Positions 16,402-52,130 of a DNA stretch of 64,000 nt are shown here, piece after piece (within the stretch, counting starts at the first letter, position 1; every line of letters starts with the position of its first letter). The DNA is from Anabaena lutea FACHB-196 (GTDB taxonomy: Bacteria; Cyanobacteriota; Cyanobacteriia; Cyanobacteriales; Nostocaceae), in assembly GCF_014698305.1 (NCBI RefSeq), contig NZ_JACJST010000008.1, forward strand, positions 1-64,000. Reading direction: 5' to 3'. A program made the position numbers and the translations under genes. The notes beneath the pieces were generated by a model. That model did not search any database. It was not told where the DNA came from and saw nothing but the letters and a program-made list of their open reading frames with translations.

Positions 16402-19400
16402 CTAGACAAGCACTACAGCGATCGCACCTCCTAAAGCCGCAGCAATACCGGAAACAACTGCCGTTGTAAACAACCACCAAGCAGCATTAGCCGCAGCTTT
16501 GCGCGTTTCCTCGGCTTGGCGCTGTGCTTGGTGTTTCACCTGTTCTAGGCGATGTTGAGCTTCGTGCTGTAGGCGTTCGGCTCGTTGTAATACATTATTC
16601 CGGGCGCGTTCAATTTGGTCAACAATGCGGTTGGCATCTTCTGCTGAGATATCCTCACGAGAACTCAAAACAGCTACCAAGGTATCCCGGTTAAAAGATG
16701 AAAGGCGATCGCGTAAGGCATCAAATCCAGCTTGGGGATCATCAAACAATTGGCGGATATCATGGGTAATGCCATCATAATTAAGTTCCGGGCGATCTAG
16801 AGCATTGAGATAATTACGAACACGGGCAAAAACGCCCTCAATCACATCTTGAATCCGCCGTTGGATTCCCCGTACCTGTTCCACAAATTGGTCACGCACA
16901 AGGACAATATTATCGGCAATCCGGGCTGCATCTTCATCAGTTATGTCTTCCCGAATTTTCAACAAAGCAATAATGGTTTCCCTATCGAAATGCGCCAAGC
17001 GATCGCTCAAACTTTCCATTCCCACTCGTGGATCATGCAACAATAATTGCAAATCCCGCTTGATGCCTTCTGGGTTCAATTCTTCCTTACCAGTCAGCCG
17101 TAAATACTCTTGCAGGTAAGCTTGGAAATTTTGCATTCTTTGCTGTGTGCGGGTTGCAAGGCGACGTGGCGCACGGACAATGTTCCGAATTGATGTCTGC
17201 ACACCATCAATAATTTGATTAACTTGTTCCTCACTCAAATCTTGACGTTGACTGAGCAACTTGACCAAAGTATCTCTGTCAATATGTGATAAGCGACGAC
17301 GAATTGCCACAGCACCCTGTTGCGGATTTTCAAACAATCTCGTCAAATCCCGCTGAATTCCTTCAGGATTCAATTCCTCCTTACCAGTCTTTCGCAGGTA
17401 ATCTGCAATCGTAGTAGTAACAGAGTCATATTGTTCCTTGGCTTTGTCTGCAACCAGTTGCGGTGTATGGCGGATGCTATGCCATGATTCCTCAACCGCA
17501 TCAATAATGTGATTAACTTGTTCTTCAGACAAATCTTGGCGTTGACTCAATAACTGCACCAAAGTATCTCGGTCAAACCGAGACAAACGCCAGCGAATGG
17601 CGGCCAGTCCAGCTTGGGGGTCTTCTAAAAGTCTTTTTAAGTCAGCCCGGATAGCATCAGGATTTAATTGTTCCTTGCCTGTATTACGCAGATATGACTC
17701 GACATTTAGCCAAAGGGTTTCCGCTTGATGTTGTGCCTGTTGAGCCAGTCCTAAAGATTCTATCAAAACGCGATCGCGCTGCATTTCCAATTCATCCAAA
17801 ATCGGATCTAATTCCCGTTCTTGAATATCATTGCGTGCTAAGAGAATTTCCCCCATTTGTTCCCGTTCAACTTGTGCCAATCGTCGGGATAGAGTTTCAT
17901 GATCTGCTTCTGAATCTGCCAAAAGCGGTTTGAAATCTCGCTCAATTCCTTCTGGTGTCAAATTTGCTTTCGGAGTCACCAACAGATAACTTTCAACTCG
18001 TCGTTGCAAATCTTGAACAATTTCTCTTTCTTCCTGGGCTGTTACTGTTACTAGCACATTATCCCGCACAGCTACCAATTGATCTGCAATGTGGCTAATT
18101 TGAGTTTGCGTCAACAGTCCCCGCTGTTGGAGAATATTTACAAAATCCTGGCGAGATATTTTCTCTAACTCCCTGCGGATTGTCCCAGGATCAGCAGCAG
18201 GATCATAAATCACATCCCGAAATTCTTGAGCAATTCTTTCCTGACTTAATTGCCAAGCATAGGTGTTACCCAAGTAGTTTTCAATATCGGCACGAATTGG
18301 GCTGTAAGGTTGTTCTGTAACTTGTTGTATGACTTTTTGTCGAGCAGTACCAAAAGTACGCAAAATTTTCTCCACATCCAAATCTGATAAATCTGCCCGA
18401 CCCAACACCACACCAGTCAGGGCTGAAAGTGTTTGTTGAATAAAACCAGGTTTTTCTTCTACCTCTTTGGTAGCGTGGGTTTCCGCAATTAGCTGCTCAA
18501 GTTTAGCATTGAGTTCATCTGTTTTAGTTTGTCCTGGGGGAAGTGATTTCAGATAATCCACCAACTCACCCACCCGGTCTGTGCTTGGTACTTGCTGACT
18601 CACCACCTGTTGCCAAATTTTGTATAAAGCATCAGCAATGCGGTTAACTTCTCGTTTAGATAAATCAGTACGACTGCTGATTAAATCGATAAACTGCTGA
18701 CGGTCAATGTTGCGGAGGTCAGGACTGTTAGCGATCGCTTTAAATTGTGGTTCATTGAGTAACCTTTCAAATTCACCCCGAATCTTAGAGATATCTATCT
18801 CTGGGGGACGTAGCTTTTCTATGTAATCTTCTATATTCTCACGAATACTTGCTGGAGCGATGGCACTGCCAAATTCTCGCCTTACAGCCGACGCAGCCGC
18901 TTCAGCCGTTGCTACCACTTGCTGATTCACAGCTTTAGCACCGAGTGCAGCCGTAGCTGTTCCCATAATTGCCTGAAAACCAGAAGTGGCTGTATTGACC
19001 ACTGAACCAATTAAGGAACCTACAGTAGTAGTACTCACCCAAACCAATAATAAAAAGTATGCCCCCCAAATAACCAATCCTAAAATTGCTCCTAAACTGG
19101 GATCTAAAATCAATAGACTCAATTTCACAGCCAAGAAACAAGCGATTAATAAGGCTAGTGTAACTGTGACTAATGTCCAAATCCCTAAGCCAGTACCAAT
19201 TTTGCGAATCGTGCCGCCGAAACTTTCAACTTCTTCTGACTCTGATGAATGCCCCAAGTATGAAATACCAGCAGCAACTGAGAGATTTGTGAACACTAAT
19301 TGGAACGCAAAGGCGAGAATCACACCAGAAATTAAAGCCACAAAAAAGCGGGGACCGGAAGTGAGTACCGATGCCTGTGCTGGCGTGACGTTGGCGGGGT

Positions 19401-19449
19401 TTACAGGTATTTGTGCCATCCACCATAAATGTTTGTACAGTTCCAGCAT
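16402..19449 (-). CDS. Large membrane protein with seven helical repeats
   Basis: 1015 residues. The N-terminus has four hydrophobic segments (about 34-60, 88-110, 114-160) and the C-terminus ends in one more (WWLFTTAVVSGIAAALGGA). Between them are seven related repeats of about 80-95 residues built as YLR.TGKEELNPEGIQRDL, LSRFDRDTL, LLSQRQDLSEEQVN and IID. The central repeats 4-6 are nearly identical; the outer ones diverge. Each repeat looks like two or three helices. I do not recognise the family or function; the layout suggests a long helical stalk between membrane anchors. Start ATG 19449 has AGGAAA upstream. A terminator follows the gene. Confidence 0.75.
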   Translation of the reverse strand: MLELYKHLWWMAQIPVNPANVTPAQASVLTSGPRFFVALISGVILAFAFQLVFTNLSVAAGISYLGHSSESEEVESFGGTIRKIGTGLGIWTLVTVTLALLIACFLAVKLSLLILDPSLGAILGLVIWGAYFLLLVWVSTTTVGSLIGSVVNTATSGFQAIMGTATAALGAKAVNQQVVATAEAAASAVRREFGSAIAPASIRENIEDYIEKLRPPEIDISKIRGEFERLLNEPQFKAIANSPDLRNIDRQQFIDLISSRTDLSKREVNRIADALYKIWQQVVSQQVPSTDRVGELVDYLKSLPPGQTKTDELNAKLEQLIAETHATKEVEEKPGFIQQTLSALTGVVLGRADLSDLDVEKILRTFGTARQKVIQQVTEQPYSPIRADIENYLGNTYAWQLSQERIAQEFRDVIYDPAADPGTIRRELEKISRQDFVNILQQRGLLTQTQISHIADQLVAVRDNVLVTVTAQEEREIVQDLQRRVESYLLVTPKANLTPEGIERDFKPLLADSEADHETLSRRLAQVEREQMGEILLARNDIQERELDPILDELEMQRDRVLIESLGLAQQAQHQAETLWLNVESYLRNTGKEQLNPDAIRADLKRLLEDPQAGLAAIRWRLSRFDRDTLVQLLSQRQDLSEEQVNHIIDAVEESWHSIRHTPQLVADKAKEQYDSVTTTIADYLRKTGKEELNPEGIQRDLTRLFENPQQGAVAIRRRLSHIDRDTLVKLLSQRQDLSEEQVNQIIDGVQTSIRNIVRAPRRLATRTQQRMQNFQAYLQEYLRLTGKEELNPEGIKRDLQLLLHDPRVGMESLSDRLAHFDRETIIALLKIREDITDEDAARIADNIVLVRDQFVEQVRGIQRRIQDVIEGVFARVRNYLNALDRPELNYDGITHDIRQLFDDPQAGFDALRDRLSSFNRDTLVAVLSSREDISAEDANRIVDQIERARNNVLQRAERLQHEAQHRLEQVKHQAQRQAEETRKAAANAAWWLFTTAVVSGIAAALGGAIAVVLV

Positions 19450-19974: not shown

Positions 19975-20178
19975 ATGGAAACTCGCTCATCTACTGATAT
20001 ATCAGCAGTTGCTAAAGCCTATAATGGCGTAGATCGTAACGCCTTTATCTTCGGCTGGAATCCCCAAGCCGAATTATGGAATGGACGCTTGGCAATGATT
20101 GGATTTATTGCCTATCTAATGTGGGATTTATTCGGCTACAGTGTTCTCCGTGACGTGCTGCACATGATCAGATACTAA
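19975..20178 (+). CDS. High-light-inducible protein (Hlip/SCP family)
   Basis: 67 residues with one transmembrane helix. The chlorophyll-binding signature is visible as FGWNPQAELWNGRLAMIGFI, with Glu and Asn/Arg in ELWNGR as expected for the one-helix CAB-like fold. Such proteins bind chlorophyll and zeaxanthin near photosystem II assembly intermediates and dissipate excess excitation in the thylakoid. A strong ribosome-binding site GGAGG lies 8 bases before the ATG. It is monocistronic. The usual trigger is high light or nutrient stress. Confidence 0.93.
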   Translation: METRSSTDISAVAKAYNGVDRNAFIFGWNPQAELWNGRLAMIGFIAYLMWDLFGYSVLRDVLHMIRY

Positions 20179-20444: not shown

Positions 20445-21782
20445 TCAAAGTAAAAAACGCACCAATACGTAAAAAGCAGAAGTCACAAGTTGAAGCAACA
20501 TTACAGGAATACCGTAATGTAAAAAAGTCTTAAACGAAATCCTTCTTCCATGCTGTTCAGCAATCCCCGCAGCGACAATATTAGAAGAAGCACCGACGAG
20601 AGTGCCATTACCTCCCAATGTTGCACCAAACATCATGGCGTAAAACAATGGTAAAACTTCTGGGGGAAACTGTCCTTGATAGTCTGAGGCTAAAACTTCT
20701 GCTGGTGCTAATCCCACATTGACGATATATTGTTTCAGCAAGGGAACCATGGCCACAACTAAAGGAATATTAGGAATAACGCTAGATAATATCCCCACTA
20801 AAAATAACAATACTAGGGAACCTAGGAGAATATTTTTCCCCAAAATCGTTCCTAAAATACCTGATAAACTTTGAATCACACCTGTTTTATCCAGTCCCCC
20901 AATTAGCACAAAAATGCTCATAAAAAATATTAATGTACTCCAATCTACATCTTTTAAGATGTTGTTGACAGTATCAATGCGGCTGTGATGAGATAATAAT
21001 AAAGCTAAAGCAGCCCCTAACAAAGCCACCGCAGCAGGTGAAATAGGTATCGGTAAGGATTCACCAATTACAAAAAATAGCAATACAAAACCTACAATTA
21101 CTCCACCCACCATTAAAACTCGTGGATGATTGATTTGTGGATGTGGTAATTCTGCTAAATCATCTAGTCTTGTATTCCAAATTTTTCTAAATAAAAATGG
21201 TAGTGTAACAATCACAGAAACAACAGCAAGTACACCTCCTAAACTCAAATTCCATAAATAATCTATAAAGCTAATATTTACAGCATCACCAACTATAAAA
21301 GTGGCAGGATCTCCAACTAAGGTTAACAACCCAGCACTATTAGCAACAAACACCATCAAAATTAATAAAGGCACAAAATTAACTCCTATTTCTTGTGCCA
21401 TGGGTGGAATTAAAGGTGCTAATAACATTACGGTAGTCGCATTGGGTAAAACTGCACAAATTGGTGTTACTAATGCCACTATACCTAATAGTAATTTTTT
21501 GCCACTACCTTGAGCGAGAATGACTATTTGTGTAGCTATATAACTGAAAATATTAGTCGGTTCAAATGCTCTTACTAAGACCATTACACCAAAAAATAAA
21601 CCCAATGTTCCATGACTTTTGCTAATGTAACCAACAGCTTCCGGCAAAGTCATGATATTAGCAAAAACTAGCAACAATGCTCCCAATAAAGCCGCAATTG
21701 TGAGATGTACCCATTCCGTCATGATTAAAAAAATAACGGAAATAAATATGATTATGCTCAGGATAGCTTGCCAATTTTCCAC
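20445..21782 (-). CDS. Ion-transporter-superfamily permease (ArsB/NhaD/SLC13-like)
   Basis: 445 residues, almost entirely hydrophobic, with about 11-12 transmembrane segments. Two repeated half-motifs of the IT superfamily are visible: PNATTVMLLAPLIPPMA and, in the C-terminal half, IPNIPLVVAMVPLL, plus NGTLVGASSNIV. This family includes Na+/H+ antiporters, arsenite exporters and anion symporters; the sequence alone does not select one. The universal-stress-protein gene lies 115 bp upstream on the same strand, but a terminator-like hairpin lies between, so it may be transcribed separately. Confidence 0.8.
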   Translation of the reverse strand: MENWQAILSIIIFISVIFLIMTEWVHLTIAALLGALLLVFANIMTLPEAVGYISKSHGTLGLFFGVMVLVRAFEPTNIFSYIATQIVILAQGSGKKLLLGIVALVTPICAVLPNATTVMLLAPLIPPMAQEIGVNFVPLLILMVFVANSAGLLTLVGDPATFIVGDAVNISFIDYLWNLSLGGVLAVVSVIVTLPFLFRKIWNTRLDDLAELPHPQINHPRVLMVGGVIVGFVLLFFVIGESLPIPISPAAVALLGAALALLLSHHSRIDTVNNILKDVDWSTLIFFMSIFVLIGGLDKTGVIQSLSGILGTILGKNILLGSLVLLFLVGILSSVIPNIPLVVAMVPLLKQYIVNVGLAPAEVLASDYQGQFPPEVLPLFYAMMFGATLGGNGTLVGASSNIVAAGIAEQHGRRISFKTFLHYGIPVMLLQLVTSAFYVLVRFLL

Positions 21783-21896: not shown

Positions 21897-22556
21897 TTAT
21901 TCATCAATACAACTGGGAATACCCAAGACAGCGCAGGGAAAATTAGTGCCTAGCGTCTTAATCATCGGATGATTGATGGATTTACACCCTAAAAACAGAA
22001 TATCAGCGGCTTCTGATTCCACAAATTTTTTAAGTTCTGCACCAATACTGCCAAACCGCAGATGTGATTTAAATGATCCCTGCCATTCTTCAGCTAGAGT
22101 TTTTGCTTGCGAGAGAATTTTGTCGGCTTCTTGCAAAAAAGTTCGGGATTCTTTTTGTAGCTGTGGTAAACTTGCTGTTATTTTTGGTTGCGTCAATACC
22201 AACGTAACTGATTTTGATATATCGCTCACAGGACATTCTAATTGAGGCTGATTGTGAGCAACTTTGAAAATATCAAAATACTGATTTTTCAAGTTTTCTT
22301 CTAATACATACACAGCGTGAACTGTAACTTGAATGTTAGTAGCTAAACTCGTTTGGTGGGCAATCCAACAGGCAATATCTAGGGCTGTGTGACTCTGAGG
22401 GGAAGCATCATAGCCAACAATTAAATTAATGGAGTTGGCGACTTGATATTGTTGAGAAACGAGGTGTTCAGCTTCTGGTAACAATACCATTTGTTCAATT
22501 AGATCATCACGACCTATAGCACTTTGTAAACGTGCTAACATTGGCTTAATTTTCAC
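21897..22556 (-). CDS. Universal stress protein (UspA family)
   Basis: About 219 residues. The UspA fold is seen in LIVGYDASPQSHTALDIACWIA (beta1-alpha1) and the C-terminal ADILFLGCKS near residues 180-195 of the protein. The typical ATP-binding G-2x-G-9x-G(S/T) is not complete, so ATP binding is uncertain. I prefer the GTG start at 22556 because GGAGAG lies about 12 bases upstream and the protein then begins VKIKPMLARLQSAIG; a longer in-frame start at 22610 exists. It is preceded by a ydaO-type riboswitch. Confidence 0.85.
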   Translation of the reverse strand: MKIKPMLARLQSAIGRDDLIEQMVLLPEAEHLVSQQYQVANSINLIVGYDASPQSHTALDIACWIAHQTSLATNIQVTVHAVYVLEENLKNQYFDIFKVAHNQPQLECPVSDISKSVTLVLTQPKITASLPQLQKESRTFLQEADKILSQAKTLAEEWQGSFKSHLRFGSIGAELKKFVESEAADILFLGCKSINHPMIKTLGTNFPCAVLGIPSCIDE

Positions 22557-22664
22557 AGTTTTAACTTCTCTCCCATGAAACGAGTGACGAATGAGAAGCA
22601 GGGATGCCAATTTAGGATTTAGGATTTAGGATTGAACCAAAATCATCAATCTAAAATTGATTTA

Positions 22665-22712
22665 GGAAACCCCAATCATAACTGCTACTACAGCCAAGGT
22701 TTTGGGGGTTCC
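22665..22712 (-). promoter_or_regulatory. Expression-platform hairpin after riboswitch 1
   Basis: Arms GGAACCCCCAA and TTGGGGTTTCC (one mismatch) follow the aptamer directly on the minus strand and share its last bases. It lacks a T run, so it might act on translation or as an anti-terminator rather than as a simple terminator. Confidence 0.5.
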
Positions 22713-22836
22713 TTCCATTGCCGACGGAGTTAGCTGACGGGCTAAGACTGGAAGGTGTCTCTCATAAGATTAGCCCCAATTTTTGGTTCCTCCGTTTCAA
22801 ATCCAGCTTTCATGAATTTGAATTAGGCTACCCGCT
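22711..22836 (-). promoter_or_regulatory. ydaO/yuaA-type (c-di-AMP) riboswitch upstream of the stress-protein gene
   Basis: Read on the minus strand, the conserved segments come in order: CGGAGGAACCAA, then GGGGCTAATCTT, then a GAGAGACACC arm, and finally CCCGTCAGCTAACTCCGTC and GGC. These match the conserved blocks of the ydaO class. That class senses cyclic di-AMP and usually turns genes off when the ligand is high. The aptamer ends about 155 bases before the USP start. A second, longer copy occurs at 26521. Confidence 0.88.
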
Positions 22837-22856
22837 AAAAACATAATAATACTATT

Positions 22857-23693
22857 TTATTCTTCTGAAGTAAAGTGGTGATCTAGAAAATTTAGAGCGT
22901 GGTTGCGGAGTTCAAAATATTCTTTAGAATTTCGGATCACACTGCGATCGCGTGGACGCTGAAACGGAACTTTGAGAATTTCCCCAATATTAGCGCATGG
23001 GCCATTGGTCATTAATACAATTCGATCAGACATATAAATTGCTTCGTCTACATCATGAGTAATCATCATTACGGCTTGACGATGATTTTCCCAGATATCT
23101 AATACCTGACGCTGCAATTTACCACGAGTTAAAGCATCTAGTGCGCCAAAAGGTTCATCCATTAATAACATTTTCGGACGAATTGCCAAAGCTCTAGCAA
23201 TACCTACTCTTTGTTTCATACCTCCAGAAATTTCATCAGGATATTTATCGGCTGCTGATGTTAAGTTTACCATTGCCAAGTGTTCATTGACAATGCTAAT
23301 TCTTTCGGCACGATTAGCATTTTTTAGCACTTCATCAACAGCTAAACGGATATTTTCGCGTACCGTTAACCAAGGTAAGAGCGAGTAATTTTGAAATACC
23401 ATCATCCTATCTGCACCTGGCTTGCGGATTTCTTTGCCATCTAAACGTACTGAGCCAGATGTGGCTTTTTGAAATCCACCAATAATTTTCAGTAATGTTG
23501 ATTTACCACAACCTGAATGACCAATTACAGAAATATACTCATCTTCACCAATCGTAAGATTAACGCCATCTAAGACAACAGCATCTCCTTTGTCTGGTGT
23601 TGGATAAGACTTGACCAAATTTTCAATTTCCAGAAATCCATGCTGGGGCTTAACTTCTTGATAAGACTCGTTTGAGAAGGAGGTATATTGCAT
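22857..23693 (-). CDS. ABC transporter ATP-binding protein (NrtD/CmpD/SsuB-like)
   Basis: About 278 residues starting MQYTSFSNES; the frame opens 26 codons earlier without conserved sequence, and AGGAA lies before the Met at 23693. Walker A GHSGCGKST, Q-loop in MVFQNYSLLPW, signature EISGGMKQRVGIARAL, Walker B LLMDEPFGALD and the H-loop MITHDVDEAI are all present. The subgroup energises nitrate, bicarbonate, taurine or sulfonate importers. It is the third gene of the operon permease-binding protein-ATPase. Confidence 0.92.
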   Translation of the reverse strand: MQYTSFSNESYQEVKPQHGFLEIENLVKSYPTPDKGDAVVLDGVNLTIGEDEYISVIGHSGCGKSTLLKIIGGFQKATSGSVRLDGKEIRKPGADRMMVFQNYSLLPWLTVRENIRLAVDEVLKNANRAERISIVNEHLAMVNLTSAADKYPDEISGGMKQRVGIARALAIRPKMLLMDEPFGALDALTRGKLQRQVLDIWENHRQAVMMITHDVDEAIYMSDRIVLMTNGPCANIGEILKVPFQRPRDRSVIRNSKEYFELRNHALNFLDHHFTSEE

Positions 23694-23760
23694 GATTAAA
23701 TATTCCTGAATTAGTGAAATTTTGAACCCAAAAATTAAGACATGAACAAATGAGTTATTT

Positions 23761-23867
23761 CTCGTTCCCATACTCTGTATGGGAATGAATTCTAGAAGGC
23801 TCTGCCTTTAATGAATGTAGAGGCAGAGCCTCTGTGATAGCATTCCCAGTCTCTGACTGGGAACGAG
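23761..23867. repeat. Interspersed nested palindrome inside the ABC operon
   Basis: The outer arms CTCGTTCCCA and TGGGAACGAG are reverse complements. Inside lie TACTCTGTATGGGAATG with its own symmetry and AAGGCTCTGCCT/AGGCAGAGCCT. A half copy lies at 34484-34534. It fills the gap between the binding-protein and ATPase genes and may form a stable mRNA hairpin. Confidence 0.85.
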
Positions 23868-23883
23868 ATAATATACACCTACT

Positions 23884-25386
23884 TTAGGACATAAAAAAGC
23901 GATTGGGAGCGTTAGCCCTGATGGCAAAACTATTTAGATAACCAACAGGATCACTAGGGTCAAAGCCTTTTTTATCTATGAATGCTTCGGGCGATTCAAC
24001 CTTATAATCATCCTTGGGGCATTGAATTCCCATTTCCGCAGCTATATCCCGATATAAATCTGTTCGCCACCCTCTTTCGGCTATTTGATTGGCATTTTTG
24101 GGAATTTCTTTGATTTGTCCCCAACGAGCGGCTTGAGTCATAAACCAAATACTTCGAGAACGCCATAAAAATGTGGAATGTTCTCCTGTTTCTTGGGGAA
24201 TATTTTCAGGAATATCGTAGAAAATTGTGGTATCAGCAGCTGTAATAGTGCGGTCTTTACTATCAAAGCCACCATAATTGTAATTACCAATAATTCCTGG
24301 AGAAGTCAATTTAGTTATGGGCGCATTTTGCTGTTTTGGTTTTGCGCCAGTAAAGGATTTTTCTGTCATTAATTGTGCTACTTCTTGCCGATTTTCAGGT
24401 TTACTGCAATACTGACAGGCTTCAATCATTGCTTTTACCAAAGAACGATAGGTTTTGGGATAATTATTGATGAAAGATTCCATTACTCCTAGCAATCTGT
24501 CTGGGTGTCCTTGCCAAACTTCTTTACCTTGAGCGAATGTAAAACCGATGCCTTCGTTACCTTGAATTGCTCTGGTGTTCCAAGGTTCGGCTACCATGTA
24601 AGCTTGCATTGCGCCAATTCTCATGTTTGTCACCATTTGCGGTGGGGAAACGATGATGACCCGAAATTCCTTGAAGGGGTCTACACCAGCAGCCGCAGAT
24701 ATATAGCGGACAAAGTATTCATAAATAGCAGAACTCAAAACTACCGCCCAAATTTTCTTTTCTGGGGGTTGTTGGTTAAAAAATCCCCGGAAGTCTCTTC
24801 CAAAGGCTTCTAAAGCACCATCACCATATTTTTGTTGATATTCATACCAAGGACGTATGCCAAAGTCCCACATTTCTTTGTTCATGGTCATGGCGTTACC
24901 ATGACGGTGTATGGTCATGGCTGCACATAGGGGGGCATGACGCGCACCTTCTGCGCCAATTCTGGCATTGGTGACAGCACCGGATACGACGGGTGCAGCA
25001 TCGAGACGACCAAAAATTAAACCGTCGCGGGAGTTTCCCCAACTAGCTTCGCGGTTGAGTTTGACATTTAAGCCGTATTTGCGGAAGAATCCTTTTTTCC
25101 ATGCGATCGCAAATGGCGCACAATCATTAACAGGAACATAACCAACAGTAATATCGGGTTTTTCTAAATCTTCGGGTCTAACTAAAGGTTCCACAGCTAA
25201 AGCAGCTTCCGTCAGTCCTTTAACAGACTTATCTCCAGATATCCCACATGATGACAACGCTAAACCCGCAGTCGTTGCACCTATTCCCTTAATAAAATCT
25301 CTACGAGTCCAATTATTTTCACTCATAATCGTATCCAATTTTGGATTATGTAAGATTTGCTGAGTCCGCTTTACAGCAGTTTTCAT
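23884..25386 (-). CDS. ABC transporter substrate-binding protein (NrtA/CmpA family, Tat-type lipoprotein)
   Basis: About 500 residues. A twin-arginine motif TRRDFIKGIG lies at about 28-37, followed by a hydrophobic stretch and a lipobox ending ALSSCG, so it is probably exported folded and then lipid-anchored. The long NrtA/CmpA-type binding fold follows (ITVGYVPVNDCAPFAIA, HGNAMTMNKEMW, FRVIIVSPPQMV). The typical ligands are nitrate or bicarbonate; the actual ligand is not readable. An internal start at Met21 (25326) would also retain the signal. The gene lies between the permease and ATPase genes, 183 bp and 112 bp away; both gaps contain palindromes. Confidence 0.88.
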   Translation of the reverse strand: MKTAVKRTQQILHNPKLDTIMSENNWTRRDFIKGIGATTAGLALSSCGISGDKSVKGLTEAALAVEPLVRPEDLEKPDITVGYVPVNDCAPFAIAWKKGFFRKYGLNVKLNREASWGNSRDGLIFGRLDAAPVVSGAVTNARIGAEGARHAPLCAAMTIHRHGNAMTMNKEMWDFGIRPWYEYQQKYGDGALEAFGRDFRGFFNQQPPEKKIWAVVLSSAIYEYFVRYISAAAGVDPFKEFRVIIVSPPQMVTNMRIGAMQAYMVAEPWNTRAIQGNEGIGFTFAQGKEVWQGHPDRLLGVMESFINNYPKTYRSLVKAMIEACQYCSKPENRQEVAQLMTEKSFTGAKPKQQNAPITKLTSPGIIGNYNYGGFDSKDRTITAADTTIFYDIPENIPQETGEHSTFLWRSRSIWFMTQAARWGQIKEIPKNANQIAERGWRTDLYRDIAAEMGIQCPKDDYKVESPEAFIDKKGFDPSDPVGYLNSFAIRANAPNRFFMS

Positions 25387-25440
25387 CTATATTGGAGACT
25401 TTCGATTAAAAAAATGTCCCAATTTGTAGTGTGAATGTAG

Positions 25441-25461
25441 GGGTTTAGCACTGCTAAACCC
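25441..25461. repeat. REP-like palindrome, copy 4
   Basis: GGGTTTAGCA / TGCTAAACCC around a central C, between the permease and binding-protein genes. It matches the three copies near the transposase at 369-935, about 24 kb away, and shows that the element is dispersed. Confidence 0.75.
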
Positions 25462-25569
25462 TTACTCATACTTTCTTAGACCACACTCTTCATTTCTCTG
25501 GAACGACTCTGCACCTCTGCGTGAAAAAATGTGATTTATTTACCTAAAAATCACTTTCAATAAATTGTT

Positions 25570-26421
25570 TTACTTCACACTTCCCGGACGGTGAGTAACT
25601 AACTCTTGAAGTTTACCCACACCATAATCTAGAACTAAGCCAGTTAAGCCAATTACAAACACAGCCAGAAATACAGAACTAAGATTTAAACGGCTCCATT
25701 CATCCCAAACAAAAAAGCCGATACCCACACCACCTGTCAACATTTCTACGGCAACAATTACCAGCCAAGCAATTCCTAAACTAATTCGCAAACCTGTAAA
25801 AATATAGGGCAAACTGGCAGGCCAAATAATTTTGATAATCTGTCGCCACCGAGGCATTTCCAACACCTGTGCTACATCTAAATAATCTTTAGAAACGCTA
25901 GAAACTCCCAAGGCTGTATTAATAATAGTTGGCCACAGGGAGGTAATGAAAATGACAAAAATAGCTGAAGGATCTGCCAAATTGAATATGGCTAAAGAGA
26001 TAGGCAACCAAGCGAGGGGTGAGACGGGTTTAAATATCTGAATAATAGGATTAAAAGCCAGCATTGCCGGTCTAGACGTCCCAATCAAAAACCCCAAGGG
26101 AATAGCGACTAATGCACCTAACCCAAAACCTAATAATACCCTGCGTAAACTGGCTAATAATAACCACCCAATTCCTAAGTTACCAGGACCTCTTTCATAG
26201 AATGGATTTAAGATGTAGTCCAAATTTGCAATTAAAGCTTCTGTTGGTGTAGGCATCAATTCACGATTAGCAAGTGCTACTACCCACCACAACAAAATTA
26301 TTCCCACAAAACCTACAACAGGCAATAAGAACTCATCCCGAAAAATAACAGGTTTTGCTTTTTTCCAAGCAAGTCTTCCAGCAACGGCAATCGTTGCAGC
26401 TAAATTCAGTTGCAAAATCAT
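25570..26421 (-). CDS. ABC transporter permease (NrtB/CmpB/SsuC-like)
   Basis: 283 residues with about six transmembrane helices and the permease loop EAA-type motif near ITSLWPTIINTALGVSSVSKDYLDVAQVL. The start ATG has GAGG 8 bases upstream. It is the first gene of the three-gene importer and lies directly after a second ydaO-type riboswitch. The family transports nitrate, bicarbonate, sulfonates or related anions. Confidence 0.9.
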   Translation of the reverse strand: MILQLNLAATIAVAGRLAWKKAKPVIFRDEFLLPVVGFVGIILLWWVVALANRELMPTPTEALIANLDYILNPFYERGPGNLGIGWLLLASLRRVLLGFGLGALVAIPLGFLIGTSRPAMLAFNPIIQIFKPVSPLAWLPISLAIFNLADPSAIFVIFITSLWPTIINTALGVSSVSKDYLDVAQVLEMPRWRQIIKIIWPASLPYIFTGLRISLGIAWLVIVAVEMLTGGVGIGFFVWDEWSRLNLSSVFLAVFVIGLTGLVLDYGVGKLQELVTHRPGSVK

Positions 26422-26520
26422 ATCGTAACCTCAACAGAGTTCAGCACGCATACACTGAAACTGAGCAGTACCAGCCTTGGACACTGATGAGATCAAAACA
26501 TTATCAAAATGCTGTCTCTT

Positions 26521-26730
26521 CAGTCTCCTCTCAATGCCTACGAAGTTAGCTGACGGGCTAGGGCTGAGAGATGCCCCTCTTTCAGAAGTGATGAGTTTTG
26601 AGTTCTGAATTCAATATTGACTAAATTCTCTACTTTTGACTCTTAACTAGTCACTTTCTAAGAGATACGCCCCACAATTTGGTTCCTCCGCTCCAGCCTT
26701 AGGTTAAGTACTGGATTAGGCTGACTTACT
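26521..26730 (-). promoter_or_regulatory. ydaO/yuaA-type (c-di-AMP) riboswitch upstream of the ABC transporter operon
   Basis: Minus-strand conserved blocks in order: GCGGAGGAACCAA, GGGGCGTATCTCT, a variable loop of about 80 bases, GGGGCATCTCTCAGCCC and AGCCCGTCAGCTAACTTCG with TAGGC. The 3' block is nearly the same as in riboswitch 1 at 22711. The extended variable loop accounts for the greater length (210 bases). It starts 100 bp upstream of the permease ATG. Confidence 0.88.
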
Positions 26731-27005
26731 CTAAAATATATACTAACAGCGACACAATAACATTAATATACAGTAAAAGCATCTGTGTTGATGATTAATA
26801 TTATTAATTTAACTACTTAATTTTCCTAAGTGTCCTAGTTTTTCAGTAATAATTCCTATCTATAGAATTATTTTGTGAGTGAATCTCTACCTATAGGCAT
26901 ACCAGGGTTAGCGCATCTCATATCATGTCCGGTTGTTCGCGCAGCTTGGCGGTAGCCATAATCCGACTATAAGGGAACACCAAAAAATAAATTACCCAAA
27001 AATCG

Positions 27006-52061: not shown

Positions 52062-52130
52062 AGGAACCGCCCGAACAGTAGTCCGGGCGGAGTGTGGTGT
52101 GAGGAGTGAACGGAAACATGCGTCTCCGCT
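52062..52130 (-). ncRNA. yfr1: Yfr1 small regulatory RNA
   Basis: Minus strand: a 5' hairpin (CGGAGA/TTTCCG), then the unpaired core ACTCCTCACACC, then a 3' hairpin CCGCCCG/CGGGCGG. The order hairpin, ACUCCUCACAC, terminator hairpin is the Yfr1 signature, and Yfr1 is known to lie between guaB and trxA in cyanobacteria, exactly as here. It acts as an antisense sRNA on outer-membrane porin-type mRNAs. The 3' end is followed by TTCCTT. Confidence 0.92.

Follow-up and report, generated by a model that had tools for sequence, protein, structure and literature searches.

A c-di-AMP riboswitch precedes an ATP-binding cassette importer of the NrtA/CmpA superfamily in Anabaena lutea and other cyanobacteria

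What does a riboswitch for a second messenger do in front of an importer that resembles nitrate and bicarbonate transporters? The question is raised by a stretch of 64,000 nucleotides of the cyanobacterium Anabaena lutea FACHB-196 (contig NZ_JACJST010000008.1, positions 1–64,000; hereafter the window), which belongs to a genome of 6.06 Mb in 62 contigs. An earlier reading of the letters alone (the sequence-only reading) had described there an aptamer of about 210 bases with an extra 80-base loop, ahead of permease, binding-protein and ATPase genes of an ATP-binding cassette (ABC) importer, and a second aptamer within 4 kb. An Rfam scan of the window bore out this architecture. RF00379, the family of cyclic di-AMP (c-di-AMP) riboswitches, matched aptamer 1 with 70.0 bits over model positions 1–134 (E 3.3e-14). 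The match is 213 nucleotides (nt) long, of which 77 nt lie outside the model, all in one peripheral hairpin; the three importer genes follow it on the minus strand, and 3,680 bases separate it from aptamer 2 (Table 1). Our explanation, which we hold to be fairly probable on the sequence comparisons below, is that a c-di-AMP riboswitch in the 5′ leader would control an ABC importer forming a subfamily of its own within the NrtA/CmpA superfamily, with a small monovalent anion as the presumed cargo.

Table 1 Features of the riboswitch–importer locus in the window. USP, universal stress protein.
Feature	Position	Strand	Basis and remarks
c-di-AMP (ydaO/yuaA) riboswitch aptamer 1, 213 nt	26520–26732	-	RF00379
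Elongated peripheral hairpin (extra 80-base loop)	26577–26665	-	77 nt not in model; ends by eye
Pseudoknot strand 1 (UCUCUCAG, hairpin loop)	26564–26571	-	Complement of 3′ tail
Pseudoknot strand 2 (UUGAGAGG, 3′ tail)	26527–26534	-	Complement of hairpin loop
Helix A 5′ strand (GGAGACUGA)	26520–26528	-	Pairs with 26479–26487; shares two G with pseudoknot strand
Helix A 3′ strand (UCAGUGUCC)	26479–26487	-	26480–26486 doubles as 5′ strand of competing helix B
Helix B 3′ strand (GGUACUG)	26466–26472	-	Mutually exclusive with helix A
Shine-Dalgarno-like GAGG	26429–26432	-	7 nt before ATG, read in sequence
ABC importer permease	25570–26421	-	TIGR01183 ntrB 229.3 bits (cut-off 209.05); PF00528
Binding protein, 500 aa as called	23884–25386	-	PF13379 NMT1_2 215.5 bits (cut-off 24.7)
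ABC importer ATPase, 304 aa as called	22857–23771	-	TIGR01184 ntrCD 365.7 bits (cut-off 291.8)
c-di-AMP riboswitch aptamer 2	22704–22839	-	RF00379 59.4 bits
USP-domain gene behind aptamer 2	21897–22610	-	PF00582 36.3 bits (cut-off 24); TTG start doubtful
CitMHS/ArsB-superfamily transporter (CIT)	20445–21782	-	PF03600 211.4 bits; PF02040 63.3 bits

To place the pairing of aptamer and importer, we used a comparison set of 292 genomes sampled from across the cyanobacterial phylum, in which Gnnn denotes a genome and Lnnn a region. At the RF00379 cut-off of 38 bits, at least one aptamer was found in 75 of the 292 genomes. The 112 aptamers listed include two under the cut-off (29.9 bits in G129 and 29.5 bits in G233), and 98 regions cover all 110 that lie outside the window genome; searches of more than 40 genomes were run with stricter filters, and some aptamers were possibly missed. 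In the window genome, the whole-genome Rfam search returned two c-di-AMP aptamers, the pair in the window. An ortholog of the binding protein (at least 63% identity, with the next match down at 43%) was present in 43 of the 292 genomes, and in 38 of these 43 an aptamer lies directly upstream on the same contig, the G233 aptamer under the cut-off being one of the 38. Since a genome of 6.06 Mb has two aptamers and the pairing recurs in 38 of the 43 ortholog genomes, the position of the aptamer before the importer is not due to chance. The ATPase gene of G014 is split into two open reading frames (ORFs).

Elsewhere, the arrangement was interrupted in several ways. In G039 and G008 the locus is split over two contigs, with aptamer and permease at the end of the one and the binding protein at the end of the other, and the G070 contig starts inside the aptamer (model positions 86–134, 35.9 bits, under the cut-off). 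G064 and G048 keep the importer operon, and their upstream DNA, by eye, starts like the 5′ end of the aptamer and then diverges; Rfam gave no match upstream in G064 even at E 5 and none in G048 at the gathering threshold. A first reading of these two genomes as having no riboswitch was dropped once this 5′ remnant had been seen, and both (L184, upstream of 1865, and L185) look like natural riboswitch loss. In G070 (L187:1–590), a second stretch between the cut aptamer and the permease looks by eye like part of a degraded aptamer and may be what is left of an old tandem; Rfam did not report it at E 5. Among named relatives of the binding protein (best 80 of 245 confirmed), the closest were Anabaena catenula FACHB-362 (96%) and Trichormus sp. 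NMC-1 (95%). A motif search, in place of Rfam, found the aptamer core motif upstream in 79 of these 80 and a second motif downstream in 64 of 80; these relatives are mutually close and thus not independent. No c-di-AMP aptamer was found in the fetched stretches beside seven paralogs at 31–43% identity.

The long-range pairing of a loop with the tail, the pseudoknot, defines the c-di-AMP riboswitch class. It is present in aptamer 1 (Table 1) and, as CCUUCC/GGAAGG, in aptamer 2. The complementarity of loop and tail is kept between aptamers despite changed letters, for example in G247 and G135, and the pseudoknot was in register in 103 of the 112 aptamers. That aptamer 1 is a decayed leader RNA which no longer responds is scarcely credible. 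Such decay would fit the 77 nt inserted in one hairpin and the loss of most of the aptamer in two genomes that belong, with genus g5, to the same family; against it, all 134 model positions are matched at 70 bits with the core segments and pseudoknot intact, and the insertion only lengthens a peripheral stem that is variable in length among aptamers over the cut-off.

The aptamers of the importer class span 128–251 nt, and by eye this variation comes largely from the peripheral stem. In aptamer 1, the long hairpin folds as a single imperfect palindrome (−21 kcal/mol for a 97-nt piece). The 83-base loop stretch had no second copy in its own genome at E 1 beyond pieces of 17–30 nt, the next best genome match being 23 nt long (E 0.036), and a palindromic repeat from G278 had no match in the window genome at E 0.001. 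On these two results, the idea that the extra loop is a dispersed repeat element was rejected for the window genome. We found no evidence for a function of its own for the loop, which is a stretched hairpin.

Genus g7 presents another picture: there, the importer aptamer's long hairpin is part of a palindromic repeat with dispersed copies. A 131-base query holding the hairpin of G278 (L099:9062–9138, minus strand) had 86 matches in that genome, the query itself included, and a 77-base repeat query had 98 matches in G068, 54 in G125 and 53 in G167; these counts take both strands, and one palindrome may count twice. Copies of the repeat also lie inside the importer aptamers of G068 and G167. The second aptamer of G278 is 192 nt long versus 115–136 nt in the other three g7 genomes and seems, by eye, to hold a similar palindrome. 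In this genus the riboswitch stem seems either to have taken up the repeat or to have given rise to it, and the aptamer match was not destroyed.

The expression platform between the aptamer and the start codon was analysed in 28 of the 41 importer leaders, kept where the script saw a Shine-Dalgarno-like motif and a start; the rows are mutually related, and the shuffle counts given here are therefore not probabilities. Helix A together with its inner stem comprises 14 pairs. Of its cells, 96.1% were paired, and 16 had changed on both sides, with 0 of 500 shuffles as high; slid versions were paired in at most 47%. Helix B had 92.9% of its cells paired and excludes helix A, because both use the same strand, the 5′ strand of helix B. 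The Shine-Dalgarno-like motif occurs in most leader rows, but the rows had been preselected by such a motif. At least five T in eight bases were present within 20 nt after helix B in 22 of the 28 leaders.

Taken together, an aptamer, a pseudoknot and two exclusive helices look like the anatomy of a switch. Most c-di-AMP riboswitches that have been tested are OFF switches. In the mechanism that we propose, binding of c-di-AMP would let the pseudoknot claim the two G at the base of helix A; the segment CAGUGUC would become available to helix B, and importer expression would fall. The OFF direction is proposed because of the analogy with the kdp c-di-AMP riboswitch of Bacillus thuringiensis, which passages of PMC6488665 describe as an OFF switch.

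Several observations weigh against this explanation. The best ungapped complement of loop and tail was out of the pseudoknot register in 9 of the 112 aptamers, which include those before the importers of G195, G099, G014, G185 and G233. The covariation of helix B was weak, with both sides changed in two pairs, a level reached in 17 of 500 shuffles. Its first pair is missing in 9 of the 28 rows. Sliding helix B by +3 columns gave a covariation score of 0.164 versus 0.163, though only 54.6% of the cells were paired. The T-rich stretch after helix B is absent from the window's own leader, and a terminator scan of positions 22400–27000 returned 4 sites versus 3.6 in shuffles, none of them in the leader. 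Translational instead of termination control of the leader is possible. Promoter-like sites over the same positions numbered 13 versus 11.6 in shuffles.

Is the importer behind this leader one of the known transporters? The genome encodes an NrtA on contig 28 (575.6 bits to 2g29 versus 416.3 to 2i48) and, on contig 9, a CmpA (592.8 bits to 2i48 versus 450.3 to 2g29). In both cases an ATPase with a fused regulatory domain lies some 3 kb away; we call these two NrtC and CmpC by position. The importer in the window is thus neither the nitrate nor the bicarbonate importer of this genome, both of which are encoded elsewhere. Its ATPase has no regulatory extension of the NrtC/CmpC kind, PF00005 being the sole Pfam match at E 0.001. 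The start of the ATPase probably lies downstream of the called one; its orthologs are mostly 273–288 aa as called. For the binding protein, NCBIfam gave three hits at E 0.001, among which only that to the twin-arginine translocation signal, TIGR01409, was over its cut-off. This signal and a lipobox-like Cys47, seen by eye, place the true start probably near residue 21. A structure prediction from an alignment of 32 close sequences was too poor (mean predicted local distance difference test score 39.2, predicted template modelling score 0.36) and was not used.

In a tree of 81 binding-protein rows with a midpoint root, for which the program warned that long branches meet, the 38 riboswitch-linked binding proteins formed one clade (support 100/100). 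Next to this clade came the seven paralogs and then six regulatory domains; the 30 NrtA/CmpA rows, including one 821-aa frame assigned to the group by hand, stood apart. The nearest solved sequences to the binding protein were the regulatory domains of CmpC (225 bits) and NrtC (214.5 bits), followed by NrtA (160 bits) and CmpA (2i48, 151 bits). The description of the importer as NrtA/CmpA-like in the sequence-only reading thus stands for the nitrate/bicarbonate superfamily and fails for NrtA and CmpA themselves, which have their own genes elsewhere, form another clade and, for CmpA, carry an acid where the window protein has R. As a part of our explanation, we favour with fair confidence a separate subfamily of the NrtA/CmpA superfamily.

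Pocket residues were mapped through the numbering of the solved chain and are given in that of the window binding protein. W116, N164, Y222, E267 and R297 were identical in 38 of 38 orthologs. R297 occupies the position of NrtA K269, at which the genome's NrtA and both regulatory domains have K and CmpA has E. We take W102 and Q155 of NrtA to be ligand residues, and the acid of CmpA at the K269 position presumably acts in calcium binding. In passages of PMC8786288, K269 and H196 of NrtA balance the charge of nitrate, and CmpA balances bicarbonate with calcium. Because R297 is at the position of the CmpA acid, calcium-assisted binding of bicarbonate is unlikely. Judged by these residues, a small monovalent anion is the most likely cargo and bicarbonate is disfavoured; nitrate or nitrite would be the first candidates, followed by chloride or a different small anion.

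A bicarbonate importer like CmpABCD, which would link carbon uptake with c-di-AMP, appears improbable. The common superfamily, the score with CmpA and the N at the Q155 position, as in CmpA, are in its favour, as is the tie of c-di-AMP to carbon control through SbtB described in PMC13249358. However, the acid position of CmpA, which uses calcium (PMC8786288), is R in all 38 orthologs, a separate CmpA lies beside a CmpC-like gene in the same genome, and the binding protein falls outside the NrtA/CmpA clade.

A second nitrate or nitrite transporter, by which c-di-AMP would tie nitrogen uptake to the osmotic or day/night state, is a serious possibility, although we put it below even chances. The permease and ATPase exceed the cut-offs of the ntrB and ntrCD models, the pocket has a basic residue at the K269 position and the shared Trp, and the nearest solved sequences are the CmpC and NrtC regulatory domains, of which that of CmpC is reported to sense nitrate (a passage of PMC13249358). 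On the other hand, a separate NrtA lies beside an NrtC-like gene in the same genome. The position of NrtA H196 is Y222 in all 38 orthologs, so that the pocket is not that of NrtA, a point that also counts against our own explanation. The recurrent neighbours are a USP gene and the CitMHS transporter. Among ORFs 3.2–7 kb behind importer-class aptamers, only two further families were found in at least four genomes, and both were confined to G103, G127, G149, G153, G155 and G245, one closely related set.

It is also conceivable, but in our estimate rather unlikely, that the cargo is not an inorganic anion and that the pocket is only superficially NrtA-like; an organic osmolyte, a sulfonate or a cation such as guanidinium would then be carried. 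The wider superfamily carries diverse cargoes. A guanidine ABC importer of Synechocystis sits under a guanidine riboswitch (passages of PMC12186494), and genes of guanidine riboswitches were once annotated as nitrate/sulfate/bicarbonate transporters (passages of PMC7266159); the case illustrates how misleading such annotation can be, and both reports count against a small anion as well. In addition, cyanobacterial targets of c-di-AMP riboswitches have been described as osmoprotectant transport or synthesis (PMC5986932 and PMC4284465, in passages citing Nelson 2013). The basic residue 297 and W116, common to nitrate-type proteins and invariant among the orthologs, argue against such a cargo and for a small anion.

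The other genes under these aptamers bear on the same question. We sorted the 112 aptamers by the first same-strand gene within 1.3 kb whose product shares at least 35% identity with a protein of the window. This gene was the permease in 41 cases (one of them, G278, with a broken importer), the USP gene in 34, CIT in 27 and an ATPase fragment in 1, and 9 aptamers had none. Ten of the sorted genes start more than 400 nt behind the aptamer, and other ORFs can intervene. Two of the nine aptamers without a window-like gene have a P-type cation ATPase, with a CIT-like gene next in both and, in G105, a 201-aa ORF in first place; two others have an Na/H exchanger with a USP domain, with CIT next in one. 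Of the other five, one has no clear gene on the same strand; the rest precede a glycosyltransferase, a DUF937-like protein that narrowly misses its cut-off, an alpha/beta hydrolase and a protein to which no Pfam family matched. By this sorting, most aptamers precede ion-transport or stress genes.

Importer and partner genes are also joined within single loci. The importer and CIT are in one gene run behind one aptamer in G091, the importer and the USP gene in G099 and G203, and in G039 and G008 the importer ATPase is followed by the USP gene. The order importer–aptamer–USP occurs in 12 genomes, the window genome and G278 included, and the view of the two aptamers as one locus is thus upheld by 11 other genomes, with the importer of G278 broken. 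In G255 and G066 (L056 and L059), the aptamers precede Na/H exchangers fused to a USP domain. From this fusion, and from the separate USP gene found behind aptamers elsewhere, the USP protein may be a partner of transporters.

Three further loci are recorded here for themselves. In G278 (L099), the aptamer is kept and parts of the permease, binding protein and ATPase are missing. The importer of G129 (L058) is broken as well: the first aptamer there runs, by eye, into a fragment of the binding protein, with the USP gene next. As a guess, the glycosyltransferase behind the aptamer of G191 (L054) might be an enzyme of the sucrose type, in keeping with osmolyte synthesis.

CIT is perhaps, even probably, an anion exporter. 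We take slr0753 of Synechocystis to belong to the same CitMHS/ArsB superfamily. Both lie behind a c-di-AMP aptamer, and they are likened here by description only. PMC10117731 reports c-di-AMP riboswitches as verified for cyanobacteria and gives slr0753, described as a putative chloride efflux transporter, as the gene under the control of the Synechocystis one. Elsewhere, the gene product is a "probable transport protein" (PMC5386190) and one of the candidates for chloride export (PMC8670252), and the evidence for its role in chloride efflux comes from suppressor mutants of a photosystem II strain that requires chloride (PMC9896922). The sequence-only reading had proposed a connection of ion or carbon homeostasis with c-di-AMP. 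The ion part of it is retained, because the CitMHS partner recurs and slr0753 is reported in that source as a riboswitch-controlled putative chloride efflux transporter (PMC10117731); the carbon part is less likely, with R at the position of the CmpA acid.

In our explanation, the importer, together with the USP gene and the probable anion exporter of aptamer 2, would link the movement of anions to c-di-AMP, a messenger already known for its connection with potassium. Passages of several papers connect cyanobacterial c-di-AMP with night survival, potassium transport, glycogen, SbtB carbon control and salt or osmotic stress (PMC5897029, PMC5986932, PMC10117731 and PMC13249358), with slr0753 as the one riboswitch target that they name, and ydaO-yuaA riboswitches are described as regulating a wide variety of transporters (a passage of PMC3766115). 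The window genome has a single diadenylate cyclase gene. More tentatively, and at rather long odds, the cyanobacterial c-di-AMP riboswitch regulon may be centred on anion balance and not on potassium, comprising an anion exporter, a USP partner and an ABC importer for a small inorganic anion, possibly chloride or nitrate in the role of a counter-ion. If so, c-di-AMP would set anion uptake and release in these bacteria as it sets potassium in Firmicutes. To our knowledge, an ABC importer of chloride would be unheard of, and interest would be high if the cargo were chloride or another counter-ion.

In titles, abstract openings and passages of open-licence papers, no mention was found of a nitrate-type ABC importer as the target of a c-di-AMP riboswitch, which is not a claim of absence from print. 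The conserved aptamer before the importer in 41 of the 75 aptamer-bearing genomes (one importer broken) offers a handle on c-di-AMP regulation, and the cargo of the binding protein would tell which solute the regulon concerns. The operon should not be annotated as nitrate or bicarbonate transport.

Other features of the window lie outside this system. The cyanobacterial small RNA Yfr1 was found at 52065–52129 on the minus strand (61.8 bits). A 67-aa chlorophyll-binding-like protein is encoded at 19975–20178 on the plus strand (PF00504, 24.9 bits; cut-off 22.3) and is presumably of the high-light-inducible kind. At 16402–19449 on the minus strand lies the gene of a 1015-aa protein with repeated motifs and membrane segments, as seen by eye; its sole Pfam match is PF00216 (30.8 bits; cut-off 22.4), with no single stretch passing alone. 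Relatives of this protein sit downstream of the USP/CIT region in several Nostocaceae.

Compared with known systems, the window locus shares with the riboswitches of Bacillus thuringiensis kdpFABC and Synechocystis slr0753 the full aptamer match, the pseudoknot and the location ahead of a transporter operon, in its 5′ leader. It differs in its target, an importer that depends on a binding protein instead of a transporter for potassium or osmolytes. Relative to the RF00379 model, one hairpin of aptamer 1 is about 77 nt longer, and no terminator was found in the leader. A riboswitch before an ABC importer is also seen in the Synechocystis guanidine-I system, whose importer we infer to be among those once annotated as nitrate/sulfate/bicarbonate transporters; the guanidine-I aptamer, however, is of another family and senses the cargo itself, whereas the RNA class in the window senses a second messenger.

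On the protein side, the importer resembles NrtABCD in passing the ntrB and ntrCD cut-offs, in its NMT1_2 binding protein with a twin-arginine signal and in the basic K269 position. It differs from NrtABCD in the gene order permease–binding protein–ATPase and in its one ATPase without a regulatory domain, and its binding protein differs from NrtA in clade and in the changes of H196 to Y and Q155 to N. With CmpABCD (BCT1) it has in common the superfamily and the N at the Q155 position, and it departs from that system by R in place of the acid at the K269 position, the lack of a CmpC-type regulatory domain and a different clade. The C-terminal regulatory domains of NrtC and CmpC are the nearest solved relatives of the binding protein and, with the midpoint root, stand nearer to it in the tree than NrtA and CmpA do. 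They are cytoplasmic and fused to an ATPase, whereas the window protein is an exported binding protein encoded by a gene of its own.

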